Below are positions 4,148-8,845 of a stretch of 37,725 nucleotides of DNA, piece by piece. Position 1 is the stretch's first letter, and every line of letters begins with the position of its first letter. Below the pieces are notes generated by a model. The model worked only from the letters and a program-made list of their open reading frames with translations. It had not been told where the DNA came from and ran no database searches. Made by a program: the position numbers and the translations under genes. The DNA comes from Thermoplasmata archaeon (GTDB taxonomy: Archaea; Thermoplasmatota; Thermoplasmata; Thermoplasmatales; Thermoplasmataceae). The stretch spans positions 1 to 37,725 of the forward strand of contig WAQW01000051.1 of NCBI GenBank assembly GCA_015520045.1, read 5' to 3'.

Positions 4148-4411
4148 ATGGATAGAAAACTGGCTGGGCAGCCTTCAAAATCGCTTGAGCGGGATCACGT
4201 TGAGAAGAGAGGTGGGTTTACCATCTTCTCGTTTTACAGGTTCTTTGGCCTGATACTCATATCTATACCACTCGGATTTTATGTGGTCTGGAACATCCTT
4301 TACAATGACTGGGGCGATATAGGAATGTATTCATTTGTGGCGCCTGTAACCATCTTTGGCATTCTCTTCGTTGCCCTCGGTTTTGAAAAAGAGAATGAAT
4401 CAAAGGCATGA
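4148..4411 (+). CDS. Small two-helix membrane protein
   Basis: This is an 87-residue protein with a charged N-terminus of about 25 residues and two predicted membrane helices (roughly 29-51 and 59-79). It ends in a short charged tail (EKENESKA). A GGGGTGAG Shine-Dalgarno ends about seven bases before the ATG. I do not recognise the family. It lies tail to tail with the VirB4-like operon, 59 bases from that operon's last gene. A role in the same machine is possible but unsupported, since it is on the opposite strand. Confidence 0.65.
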   Translation: MDRKLAGQPSKSLERDHVEKRGGFTIFSFYRFFGLILISIPLGFYVVWNILYNDWGDIGMYSFVAPVTIFGILFVALGFEKENESKA

Positions 4412-4470: not shown

Positions 4471-6723
4471 TCACGAAAGTTCCTGAGGGGTAGATATTAT
4501 TTTTACTGGATAGGAGCGGGATCCGGATATTCTGACACACTCCGAGTATGAGGCGCCTTTCCCACCTCTGAGACCCCGTAGAAATGCATTCCCGGGAATA
4601 AGGTCTCCAAAGAGTGCAGAAAGTTCATCGCTATCAAGTTTGTTTCTGAATAGAAAAATTTCAGCGCTATTGTTTATCATGCTAAGAGAGTAAGTGCTCC
4701 TGCGAAAATCGGAAAAATTCTGCGTTACGTTTATTATGGACGTTCCAAAATGCCGCGAGTTACGGACCATCTGATCCATCACCCTTACAGTTTGACCCTG
4801 ATCAAGGAAGAGGTGCGCTTCATCTACAATGATTGCCTTTGCATCACCTCCTGAACTCATCCATTCGTACGAGAAGGACGCAATCTGAAGAAGCTGAATT
4901 TCACGAGATATGCTGTCACCTGATGAGAGCCTCACAACAGTTAGATCCTGACCGGGATCCAGGTTCACAGGTCTGATAAAGTAGTTGGATATTGCATAAT
5001 CTATGAGGTCGCCATACAGACCTGACTTCTGCTTTAAGCCAAGCAATATGTCCCTGATATCCCTGACCCCTGAGGAAATGAATGAAGCTACAAGCGACTG
5101 TATGTGGTTGTAATCATCTGGATCTAGATCCAGAATTCTTTTCAGTAGCGATGTTAGATTATTCAGGAGATCAGAAGATGCTGAATCAGGCAATACGGGA
5201 TAATCACCAGCCGAGAGATCAATGATGCCTGTGTTTCCGGGAAAATAATCTGGATCATATTCGTGCAGAGGATCAATTATCAATACCCTTCTGAATACCC
5301 CTGCCTGAATTCCACGTCTGGCAATGAGTTTCACCAGATGAGTTTTCCCGGAACCCGTTTCACCGACCACGAGCATATTGAATGAATGCCCGGAGAAAGG
5401 TGATAGGTATTCGCCTTTTCCCGTCACACCGTTAAGTCCAATCAGGATCCCAACACTGTCTGCGGGCTCAAAGAAGCCCGGGAGGATACACGAAAGGTTC
5501 TCAGAACTTGAAATATAAGGGTATCCTGAATCACCCAATGGCATCAATCGCTCGATCTTCTTTCTGTTTAGATATTCAGTGACCTTGATCCTGAAGCCCA
5601 TGAATTCTAAAGCTGCACTTATACGCCTGTATCTCCTGGAGAGTTCTATAGGGCTGTCTGCACTAATTAAGATGGTGAGAGAGCCCTTTATCAGCGGCAC
5701 TCCCGCCGTTTCAAGTGAGGATGAGATCTTCCTGAGTTCATGAAGCTGCCGGGTGGCCTGTTTTCTTCCGGTGTCAGGAAGTCCACCAAGTTTCAAGTCT
5801 GACGATCTTTCAGCGATCATCGATCTGAGAATTCTTTCCGCCCTGTTTTTTGGCAGCACGTTTCCGTGAAAAAGTACATAACAGGGGAAATTAAGAGAGT
5901 CAATTTCCTGGGAAAGATAGCCAGCATTTCCTGATCCATAATCCGTTATCTCGATCCCCATATAGTAGTGGACACCAAGCTTGAAGTATTTTCTTCCGCA
6001 TCTGCAGGGAATGTATAGCTGAGGCGAGCTGGGCTTTGCGGGAAGAATATATCCAAAAAGATCTTCCAGTGAGGCGGGTTCAATCCTTATCCCCCGGGAG
6101 ACCTCCCTTATCTTTTCTGCGCTGGCACTCAAAGATAATATAGCATCTTCCGTCGTGTTCCTCGCCTCCAGAACGATGAACGAAGCGTTCGATACCGATC
6201 CCTCCTCTATTCTCCTCTTCATTTCGAAGTAATCCCCAGTACTTTTATTACCTTCATAACTGGTCACACGGGTGCTTGTTATGGGTGTGGATATTACTGA
6301 AAAGCCGCATTCTATACGCTTCAGAATCTCTTCAATGATATCACATTGAAGTTTTCTCTCTGATGATGTGGCACCTACCCTCCGCGGTGCTATGAGCTTC
6401 AGTGGAAGATAAAGCTTACCGCGGTATGTGTAAAAGTAATTGTCGCCTCTCTTTACTGCTGATATCCTAATCTTCAGGTCTCCCGCCCTTCCCGAAATAT
6501 AAAATGAGATCAAGCGCCATAGTATCATAAGCAGGGGCTCAGAATTGATCCGGAGGGCTCCGAGAAAGAATAACATTGCGGCCGGAATCAGTGCCATATC
6601 ACCGATGAACTTTCCTAGCAGGGTTGCGGTGATAACCGACACCACGAGTAAAAGAAGAATTCTCACCAGAGATTTATGTTGATAACCCCTGTAAGCGTAA
6701 GGATTCGAATTTAAACTATTCAT
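4471..6723 (-). CDS. VirB4/HerA-like ATPase (CedB-like candidate)
   Basis: This 750-residue protein would power DNA or protein transfer across the membrane. Two hydrophobic helices near the N-terminus (about 20-58) are followed by a long mixed region and then a RecA-like motor. Walker A GETGSGKT is at 454-461, Walker B IIVDEAHLF at 631-639 (Asp634, Glu635), an arginine-rich RNSRHFGTS segment at 654-662, and the sensor TQN at 667-669 typical of VirB4, HerA and TraC ATPases. The N-terminal hairpin resembles a VirB3-type fusion or the membrane anchor of crenarchaeal CedB. The start overlaps the stop of the seven-helix gene by four bases (ATGA). Whether it is truly CedB needs a profile or structure comparison; a generic VirB4 ATPase is the safe reading. 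Confidence 0.85.
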   Translation of the reverse strand: MNSLNSNPYAYRGYQHKSLVRILLLLVVSVITATLLGKFIGDMALIPAAMLFFLGALRINSEPLLMILWRLISFYISGRAGDLKIRISAVKRGDNYFYTYRGKLYLPLKLIAPRRVGATSSERKLQCDIIEEILKRIECGFSVISTPITSTRVTSYEGNKSTGDYFEMKRRIEEGSVSNASFIVLEARNTTEDAILSLSASAEKIREVSRGIRIEPASLEDLFGYILPAKPSSPQLYIPCRCGRKYFKLGVHYYMGIEITDYGSGNAGYLSQEIDSLNFPCYVLFHGNVLPKNRAERILRSMIAERSSDLKLGGLPDTGRKQATRQLHELRKISSSLETAGVPLIKGSLTILISADSPIELSRRYRRISAALEFMGFRIKVTEYLNRKKIERLMPLGDSGYPYISSSENLSCILPGFFEPADSVGILIGLNGVTGKGEYLSPFSGHSFNMLVVGETGSGKTHLVKLIARRGIQAGVFRRVLIIDPLHEYDPDYFPGNTGIIDLSAGDYPVLPDSASSDLLNNLTSLLKRILDLDPDDYNHIQSLVASFISSGVRDIRDILLGLKQKSGLYGDLIDYAISNYFIRPVNLDPGQDLTVVRLSSGDSISREIQLLQIASFSYEWMSSGGDAKAIIVDEAHLFLDQGQTVRVMDQMVRNSRHFGTSIINVTQNFSDFRRSTYSLSMINNSAEIFLFRNKLDSDELSALFGDLIPGNAFLRGLRGGKGASYSECVRISGSRSYPVKIISTPQELS

Positions 6724-7745
6724 GGGCGATCACCTCCATATCTCCGGTAGTCGGAACCGATCGATTCCAGATGCTCCCACCTAACCTTTCCATCTCTGGT
6801 GATTGCCTCCACACCACGATCACTTTTACCCTGAAGGAACTCCTTTTCGGAAAAACCCGGCGGGAAATTGGGCTTGCTGTAAGAACGTACGAATGAGAAT
6901 GGTTGGGAACTGCTTAAATCAAACAGTGAGAGAACCGCACCCAGTGAAAAGGCTCTCTTCTCCCTCAGGAAGATTACGGGGATAATGGGTACCGATCCAA
7001 GAAGCGCAAGCTGCAGCGGAAAGTTAAAGGAGAACAGACTGGCCAGGTAGATCGGGACCAGCATTATGAAGGGGAGGGCTGTCATCTGGATCGTGAATAC
7101 CCAGAGATTGTAAGCATATCTGTCCAGACCGGGGACAATAAATAGAGCAGATATAAAAGGGAGAGTGATTATGAGAACAAGAAGAAGGGCTTCGCGTATC
7201 ATCAGCGTGCCGAGCATTGTTCCAGTTACCGTGAAAAGAGATGTCAACAGAAGAAAAGTCACCAGTTCGTTATTGATCCCGTTGAGGGAAGTGGGTAGCA
7301 GTGTCTTGCTGTTGAGCCCGAGAATTGAGGTGAGGGAATACCAGTTTAGGCCTGCGCTCTGCCATACAAGAGAATAGAGGGAATGCTCAAAAACCAGCAG
7401 ATATTTCATAATGTCAAAGGAGAAAATCATCACAGAAACCCCGGCAGCCAACCGCACCACATATCTAACAGGAGAAGGCGATTCATAGAGAGAATTAAGT
7501 GAGAGGAAAAGAATCGCGGAGATAGCTGCGATGAGTGCTATTATCTGCGCATCAATACCCGAGAAAAATGCAAACAGCGATACAAAGGAACTTTGACTGA
7601 GCTCCGGCTGCAAGTAAGCATTTGATGGTGATATCCCATACTGAGCTATCGCAAGCCACATTGTTGAAATGATATAGATATAAGCGTGATTAACGATAGC
7701 CACAGCAGCACCAAGGTACTGTGCGATCACGTTGATCGACAGCAT
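6720..7745 (-). CDS. Polytopic membrane protein, VirB6/CedA-like candidate
   Basis: This 341-residue protein has about seven hydrophobic segments (roughly 10-36, 62-85, 96-118, 160-181, 184-205, 213-238, 244-261) and a hydrophilic C-terminal tail of about 80 residues. The tail ends in a charged GSDYRRYGGDRP. The pattern, together with its place between a two-helix small protein and a VirB4-type ATPase, matches the channel component VirB6/TrbL of type IV secretion and CedA of crenarchaeal DNA import. The protein starts two bases after the upstream stop and overlaps the ATPase start, so the three subunits are coupled. Assignment is by topology and context, not by a sequence motif. Confidence 0.72.
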   Translation of the reverse strand: MLSINVIAQYLGAAVAIVNHAYIYIISTMWLAIAQYGISPSNAYLQPELSQSSFVSLFAFFSGIDAQIIALIAAISAILFLSLNSLYESPSPVRYVVRLAAGVSVMIFSFDIMKYLLVFEHSLYSLVWQSAGLNWYSLTSILGLNSKTLLPTSLNGINNELVTFLLLTSLFTVTGTMLGTLMIREALLLVLIITLPFISALFIVPGLDRYAYNLWVFTIQMTALPFIMLVPIYLASLFSFNFPLQLALLGSVPIIPVIFLREKRAFSLGAVLSLFDLSSSQPFSFVRSYSKPNFPPGFSEKEFLQGKSDRGVEAITRDGKVRWEHLESIGSDYRRYGGDRP

Positions 7746-7747
7746 AC

Positions 7748-8026
7748 CTATGAACCTGTGACTATGAATGTGAATATGGCGTAAAGTGCTCCACTTACGG
7801 CAAGTATATAAATGAAGGTGCCTATAACGGCATTCTTGAATCTGGATTTAGCTTCAAGCTTTTTTGATTCGTCAGAACTGAAAAATCCTATACCTATAGG
7901 AATCCAGAGAATCGCAATTACAATCGCGGAGACCGATATTATCAACTCGTATATTCTGTTGATCATCCCCTGTATCTGCAACTGAGTACCTATAACTGCA
8001 AGGGGAATTATTGCATTAATTACCAT
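7748..8026 (-). CDS. Two-helix small protein, VirB2/CedA1 pilin-like candidate
   Basis: I take the start at ATG 8026, giving 92 residues, because a TATA element at 8044-8055 would start transcription at that codon. An upstream start at 8074 would lie before the promoter. The product has two hydrophobic helices (about 24-49 and 66-88) joined by a short lysine-rich loop (SSDESKKLEAKSRFKN). This is the two-helix hairpin of VirB2 conjugative pilins and of the archaeal DNA-import pilins CedA1 and TedC. The first 20 residues are also rather hydrophobic. It is the first gene of the operon, where an abundant structural subunit would be expected. Confidence 0.7.
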   Translation of the reverse strand: MVINAIIPLAVIGTQLQIQGMINRIYELIISVSAIVIAILWIPIGIGFFSSDESKKLEAKSRFKNAVIGTFIYILAVSGALYAIFTFIVTGS

Positions 8027-8043: not shown

Positions 8044-8055
8044 ATATATATAAAC
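8044..8055 (-). promoter_or_regulatory. TATA element of the VirB-like operon
   Basis: The minus strand reads GTTTATATATAT. Its centre is about 24 bases before ATG 8026, the expected distance for a leaderless archaeal mRNA. This also decides the start codon of the first gene. Confidence 0.6.
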
Positions 8056-8099
8056 GATGGGCGCTAAAACTCACAGAATTCGCAAAACATGGGCTTTCT

Positions 8100-8302: not shown

Positions 8303-8803
8303 TCATTCAGATACCTTTTCACGCATGGCTCTTTTAACGATCTCCAGATTTCTCTTCCTCACAATGTTTCTCTGCTCCGCTTCCGCATATCTCCTCTTAT
8401 CTTCTTCGGTTTTGAGAATAAGCTGAGGAACCTTGGTTGGATGCCCAAGATCGTCAACAGCAACATACGTCAGGAATGCTTTTGTGGTAAACCTCCTGTC
8501 ACCCGTGGTTCCTTCCTCAGAGTATACATTTACCTCGATCTCCATTGTTGATGTCGTTACGAAGTTTATTCTCCCATCGAGACTCACAATATCTCCCATT
8601 CTGATGGGAGACATGAAAAAGAGACTGTCTATACTGCCAGTGACAGCTTTCCTTCTTGCGTGCCTGAAGGCAACTATCGAAGCAACGTTGTCTATCCATT
8701 CAACAAGGCGCCCTCCGTAAAGATTTCCATAAACATTGGTATCCTCAGGTAGAACAATCCTCTGAAGCTGAGCGGCAGATTCTTTCCAATACTTCTTTTC
8801 CAT
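8303..8803 (-). CDS. Acyl-CoA thioesterase, hot-dog fold
   Basis: The product hydrolyses acyl-CoA thioesters in the cytoplasm. The hot-dog domain shows the family pattern PEDTNVYGNLYGGRLVEWID, in which the Asn/Gly and Asp residues frame the active site. Then follow AVTGSIDSLFFMSPIRMGD and a strand pair ending in FLTYVAVDDLGHPTKVP. ATG 8803 is chosen because TTATAAT at 8824-8830 sits about 24 bases upstream. A GTG at 8818 would add five residues (MIWIL) but lies too close to the promoter. The C-terminal 30 residues are highly charged (KRRYAEAEQRNIVRKRNLEI). It is a stand-alone gene. Confidence 0.88.
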   Translation of the reverse strand: MEKKYWKESAAQLQRIVLPEDTNVYGNLYGGRLVEWIDNVASIVAFRHARRKAVTGSIDSLFFMSPIRMGDIVSLDGRINFVTTSTMEIEVNVYSEEGTTGDRRFTTKAFLTYVAVDDLGHPTKVPQLILKTEEDKRRYAEAEQRNIVRKRNLEIVKRAMREKVSE

Positions 8804-8845
8804 AAGTATCCATATCACCGTTCATTATAACCTTTCCCTCGAACC

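Follow-up and report, generated by a model that had tools for sequence, protein, structure and literature searches.

Archaea possess two chromosomal machines for DNA exchange that resemble type IV secretion systems (T4SSs). Ced of the Sulfolobales (CedA, CedA1, CedA2, CedB and CedD) is derived from VirB2, VirB6 and VirB4, with the role of VirB4 divided between CedB and CedD (PMC11868833). Ted of the Thermoproteales (TedC, TedA and TedB) has three parts and a whole VirB4 (PMC9905601, PMC11868833); its pilin gene adjoins the VirB6-like gene, and its VirB4 gene lies upstream and is often separated (PMC9905601). Here we analyze a 37.7-kb stretch of DNA, hereafter the window, which is one complete contig (C51) of a Thermoplasmataceae draft genome (1.14 Mb, 76% complete), and describe in it three minus-strand genes between positions 4471 and 8026 that with little doubt encode a T4SS core. 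They probably represent a chromosomally domesticated, minimal T4SS of the type found in monoderm bacteria, composed of a pilin, a VirB6 platform and a VirB4 ATPase carrying a VirB3/PrgI-like hairpin.

Monoderm bacterial T4SSs of the MPF-FATA class, as in Saccharibacteria/Patescibacteria and the integrative and conjugative elements of Mollicutes, comprise VirB6, a VirB4 with its N-terminal domain and a PrgI-like hairpin. Those of Patescibacteria are of MPF-FATA descent, have, in the data analysed, no VirB3-VirB4 fusions and seem to have been co-opted for another role, and those of Saccharibacteria mostly lack a relaxase (PMC12102498). VirB3 has been reported absent from archaea (PMC11868833). 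Within the Thermoplasmatales, Golyshina et al. (2016) noted “type IV secretion components” in Cuniculiplasma, namely CSP5_0791, an ATPase of the VirD4 family, and CSP5_1185-1189, a cluster of VirB4, multipass and membrane proteins, with no pilin, VirB6 or VirB3 assigned and no comparative analysis (PMC5155288); a VirB4 is also mentioned in the E-plasma paper (PMC10354927).

Results

The three open reading frames (ORFs) run from 8026 to 7748 (92 residues), 7745 to 6720 (341 residues) and 6723 to 4471 (750 residues), the first two separated by a gap of 2 nucleotides (+2) and the last two overlapping by the 4 nucleotides ATGA (-4), exactly as an initial annotation made from the sequence had read them. 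That annotation proposed a Ced-like importer or minimal T4SS with VirB2-, VirB6- and VirB4-like parts; Pfam, Foldseek, hhalign and a profile match in the PDB all support the minimal T4SS, and its Ced-like character is not borne out. Comparison loci from outside archaea were one Saccharibacteria locus (L119) and one Alicyclobacillus plasmid.

The 750-residue product (4471 to 6723, minus strand) matches PF12846 (AAA_10) and PF01935 (DUF87/HerA) above cut-off, and has the predicted N-terminal two-helix hairpin followed by a VirB4 N-terminal domain. Its Walker A (GETGSGKT, 5341 to 5364) and Walker B (IIVDEAH, 4813 to 4833) motifs are intact, with G454, G457, G459, K460 and E635 invariant in an alignment of 31 sequences. 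As a single sequence it matched nothing among PDB sequences; the profile of its family found VirB4 (4ag5) as the best match, with an E-value of 1.9e-22. Against the mycoplasma VirB4 family (VirB4_plasma) its score is 65 bits, whereas the CedB and CedD models, whose cut-offs are 700 and 600, give 23.2 and 17.3 bits. By these sequence comparisons the ATPase is of the VirB4 type and not a CedB, and the VirB4 role is unsplit. In clusters of family f3 a further VirB4/CedB/HerA-like ATPase of 677 residues, scoring 35 bits to CedB, directly follows VirB4 (L049:9832-11865, plus strand).

The N-terminal part of this ATPase, the hairpin included, is in many relatives a separate ORF of 230-250 residues, such that the VirB4 N-terminal domain is encoded within one gene or by two adjacent ones. 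In hhalign, the profile of these ORFs aligned with the VirB4-N ORF of the Saccharibacteria locus with an E-value of 1.8e-8 and a score of 56.3, unrelated controls reaching at most 20.7. The hairpin itself (residues ~1-80; 6484 to 6723, minus strand) occupies the position of PrgI in the Saccharibacteria locus, and 17 homologous N-terminal ORFs gave Pfam matches to PrgI (three members), VirB3 and TcpE, every one of them weak. On position and these matches we consider the hairpin to be probably VirB3/PrgI-like.

The 341-residue protein (6720 to 7745, minus strand) matched nothing in Pfam or NCBIfam, nor did its family profile match any PDB sequence. The cytosolic C-terminal tail that had been predicted for it stands in the AlphaFold2 (AF2) model, where it is disordered, and the predicted seven helices are approximate: hydropathy gives six, and the model has five long helices plus short ones (mean predicted local distance difference test score 81, predicted template-modelling score 0.71). 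When this model was compared with 350,542 PDB chains in Foldseek, ranks 1-4 were all TrwI/VirB6 of R388, with a best probability of 0.82. The family profile aligned with the Saccharibacteria VirB6 with an E-value, for that single pair, of 2.1e-5 over 172 columns; its score was 43.9, and the next best, among 68 unrelated polytopic membrane proteins serving as background, was 21.0. R184 and P196, invariant in the archaeal family, align with an arginine and a proline of the Saccharibacteria protein. Profile matches to the VirB6 and PrgI of the Alicyclobacillus plasmid were not significant. Although the individual E-values are modest, the 341-residue protein is VirB6-like.

The 92-residue protein (7748 to 8026, minus strand) matches PF18895 (T4SS_pilin) with 31.2 bits (cut-off 26.6). 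Its AF2 model consists of two long helices, 3-48 and 53-90, joined by the Lys/Arg-rich loop SSDESKKLEAKSRFK that the initial annotation had pointed out. Across the order, PF18895 is above cut-off in 20 genomes and reaches E<=0.01 in 84 of 117; it also matches the pilin of the Saccharibacteria locus (37.2 bits) and the N-terminus of its VirB6 (35.2 bits). The direct profile alignment of the two pilins was weak (E 0.12), and the pilin family profile matched no PDB sequence. Of the structural comparisons, which had been suggested for both membrane proteins, the one with VirB6 gave a match, and for the AF2 model of the 92-residue protein Foldseek returned no pilin. Consequently the pilin call rests on sequence family and context, about 35 fetched loci having a homologue ahead of VirB6/VirB4; by sequence family the protein is a VirB2-like pilin.

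Several observations on pilins of other genomes may be added here. Most pilins of family f1, including this one, begin without a signal-peptide-like segment, as does CedA1, and those of families f3 and f4 (L033, L037, L034) have a signal-peptide-like N-terminus, as does TedC. A family f5 locus (L146:10826-15685, minus strand) encodes, upstream of VirB6/VirB4 and adjoining an Ig-like surface protein, five consecutive proteins of 160-405 residues, each ending in a pilin-like hairpin and most with long ectodomains, so that the pilin-like set is enlarged there. PF18895 also matched above cut-off in Haloferax volcanii, which served as a control genome; Haloferax is known for mating of the cell-fusion type.

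The trio is a widely conserved unit. Of 61 relatives, 51 have a homologue of the ATPase. Within a phylum sample all 29 high-quality genomes of the family encode one, nearly always at a single place per genome, and 106 of 117 genomes of the order match at E<=1e-8, part of these matches being weak. Pilin and VirB6 homologues lie directly upstream of the ATPase gene in nearly all fetched loci; the trio is syntenic in nearly all genera of the family, almost always single-copy, and the synteny comparison proposed by the initial annotation finds it as a stand-alone unit across the Thermoplasmatales. Homologous trios in identical order in tens of genomes mean that the arrangement is not due to chance. 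Among the carriers are Ferroplasma acidarmanus Fer1, Thermoplasma sp. FL, a Cuniculiplasma metagenome-assembled genome and I-plasma; the trio is also present in other families of the order (for example L034, L049 and L146), and some members of another family of the class have the ATPase. Over 231 pairs within the family, mean identity was 62% for a neighbouring thioesterase, 56% for the pilin, 38% for the C-terminal part of VirB4 and 31% for VirB6, and the divergences correlated with r ~0.6. These correlated divergences and low identities indicate that inheritance of the locus largely follows the species and that the locus nevertheless evolves fast. Some movement does occur, since in Thermoplasma sp. 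FL (L032) the trio occupies a different genomic locus. Between this genome and another Thermoplasma (L043) the thioesterases are 94% identical, VirB6 39% and VirB4 42%, and this contrast, together with the other location, would fit either fast divergence or replacement.

The same genome encodes, on a different contig (C23:1874-3898), a VirD4/TraD-like ATPase matching PF10412 and PF12696 above cut-off. It is present at full length in most genera and missing from g9, g18 and g19, which are of the Ferroplasma type; type IV pili genes, too, are missing from the Fer1 and Fer2 genomes (PMC3750248). The initial annotation had argued from the absence of VirD4 in the window for import, an argument that this ATPase takes away. 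A search of 37 genomes of the family found no PF03432 relaxase, other MOB families lying outside that search; this result carries little weight, because none of the archaeal conjugative plasmids has a recognised relaxase (PMC12857230). Very probably the Cuniculiplasma genes CSP5_1185-1189 and CSP5_0791 are, in a relative, the counterparts of this locus and of the unlinked VirD4-like ATPase: in genome G012 the VirD4-like gene is at 0.757 Mb and the trio at 1.158 Mb, in agreement with the CSP5 numbers scaled to position if G012 is that strain.

The trio is chromosomal. The other annotated genes of the window include those for lipoate ligase, glutamate dehydrogenase, TiaS, a member of the undecaprenyl diphosphate synthase family, Trm5, an archaeal DEAD/HHH helicase and S-adenosylhomocysteine hydrolase, all chromosomal, and no transposase, integrase or relaxase was found among the 20 proteins scanned. 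A hotdog acyl-CoA thioesterase (8303 to 8818, minus strand; PF03061), a neighbour outside the machine, is close upstream of the pilin gene on the same strand at 21 of 36 loci. Convergent with the ATPase gene is an 87-residue two-helix protein (4148 to 4411, plus strand) with no Pfam match; of 40 fetched relative loci, 28 have a member of its family next to the trio, and it may be an extra component or a mere neighbour. The pilin gene has an alternative GTG start at 8074, which would yield 108 residues. A putative TATA box, TTTATATA (8047 to 8054, minus strand), at -28 to -21 from the ATG favours the 92-residue start, and implies a predicted leaderless transcript beginning near that ATG; comparable AT-rich boxes, judged by eye and unscored, precede many of the relatives' loci.

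Discussion

The gene order reported here, pilin-VirB6-[PrgI-VirB4N]-VirB4, equals VirB2-VirB6-PrgI-VirB4N-VirB4 of the Saccharibacteria locus, and the two share a pilin of the PF18895 family. Unlike the monoderm systems, the archaeal cluster has PrgI, VirB4N and VirB4 fused or reduced to two ORFs, contains no VirB1/VirB8-type gene and has neither VirD4 nor relaxase linked to it. Among archaeal systems Ted, likened here by its description, is the closest by inventory, with the same chromosomal setting and a pilin gene beside a VirB6-like gene. In contrast to Ted, the VirB4 gene comes last and no HerA/Rad50 genes adjoin the trio; in contrast to Ced, one VirB4 replaces CedB and CedD, and the cluster has no CedA2 gene.

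As to function, DNA exchange is the likeliest role, given that chromosomal Ced and Ted exchange DNA and that Ferroplasma populations recombine heavily, those in acid mine drainage being mosaics produced by frequent homologous recombination (PMC2704941); we put it at about an even chance. By what is known of T4SSs, a VirB4 hexamer would dock onto VirB6 via the hairpin and pull pilin subunits out of the membrane into a short, lipid-containing pilus or channel, through which DNA would cross between cells of a population and serve homologous recombination. The unlinked VirD4/TraD-like ATPase of most genera may supply this DNA or pull it. The complete proposal, that a core, species-inherited minimal T4SS (VirB2-VirB6-VirB3/VirB4 plus a separate VirD4-like motor) performs conspecific exchange of chromosomal DNA and causes the high recombination of Ferroplasma-type populations, is one that we advance tentatively, as plausible but somewhat short of probable.

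Several points weigh against this reading. The hhalign E-values apply to single pairs only; the Foldseek E-value of the VirB6 match is 0.19, which makes that support rank-based; the pilin model drew uninformative matches to GltPh helices; and all PrgI/VirB3 matches of the hairpin are below cut-off. The VirD4-like ATPase is unlinked to the trio and absent from Ferroplasma-type genera that keep it. Some T4SSs transfer proteins, a possible role for the trio too, and the Patescibacteria system, as said above, seems to serve another role.

The best-surviving alternative is a narrower form of our proposal, in which the trio is the euryarchaeal counterpart of Ced and Ted, a DNA-damage-induced importer for recombinational repair. 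The three-part inventory is the same, Ted likewise has a whole VirB4 (PMC9905601, PMC11868833) and order-wide chromosomal conservation suits a domesticated function, but the family models separate the ATPase from CedB and most genera possess a VirD4-like ATPase; we regard this alternative, and likewise import specifically, as rather unlikely. Less probable still is a role in secreting proteins or in contacting other cells, for instance epibiotic DPANN archaea, as proposed for Patescibacteria T4SSs. The closest comparable gene order that we found does belong to Saccharibacteria, whose T4SS is thought to be co-opted and is mostly relaxase-free (PMC12102498), and VirB6 and VirB4 outpace their neighbours in divergence, as contact machines can; however, no effector candidates were recognised in or near the trio, and cultured, free-living Thermoplasma and Ferroplasma lineages carry it.

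That the trio is what remains of an integrated conjugative element, as plasmid-borne VirB4 relatives and its other location in some genomes (L032) might suggest, is largely refuted and very improbable: the motifs are intact, its presence is near-universal, its chromosomal neighbours are conserved and no integrase or relaxase was found among the window proteins scanned, and a degenerate remnant would not have been kept by all 29 high-quality genomes. We likewise reject, as hardly credible, a HerA-like repair helicase with incidental membrane-protein neighbours, for, despite the PF01935 match, the ATPase has both its best structural relative and its best family in VirB4, the VirB4 N-terminal domain is present, and pilin and VirB6 homologues are almost always adjacent; the matches of the two membrane proteins to pilin and VirB6 already speak against it.

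Taken together, parts of the minimal T4SS that we propose were already known from the Cuniculiplasma annotation, and what appears to be new is the assignment of pilin, VirB6 and VirB3-VirB4, the core status and the bacterial-type order; we found no paper in the literature that names a DNA-transfer machine for the Thermoplasmatales. The fuller gene set and its order tie archaeal Ced and Ted to the monoderm T4SSs of bacteria and suggest that VirB3-like elements exist in archaea; if true, this would extend the VirB3-VirB4 fusion to archaea. In wall-less or wall-poor cells pilin, channel and ATPase alone may be enough, and in these acid-loving, wall-less hosts a near-universal, single-copy minimal T4SS is a testable candidate for the machinery of gene exchange.

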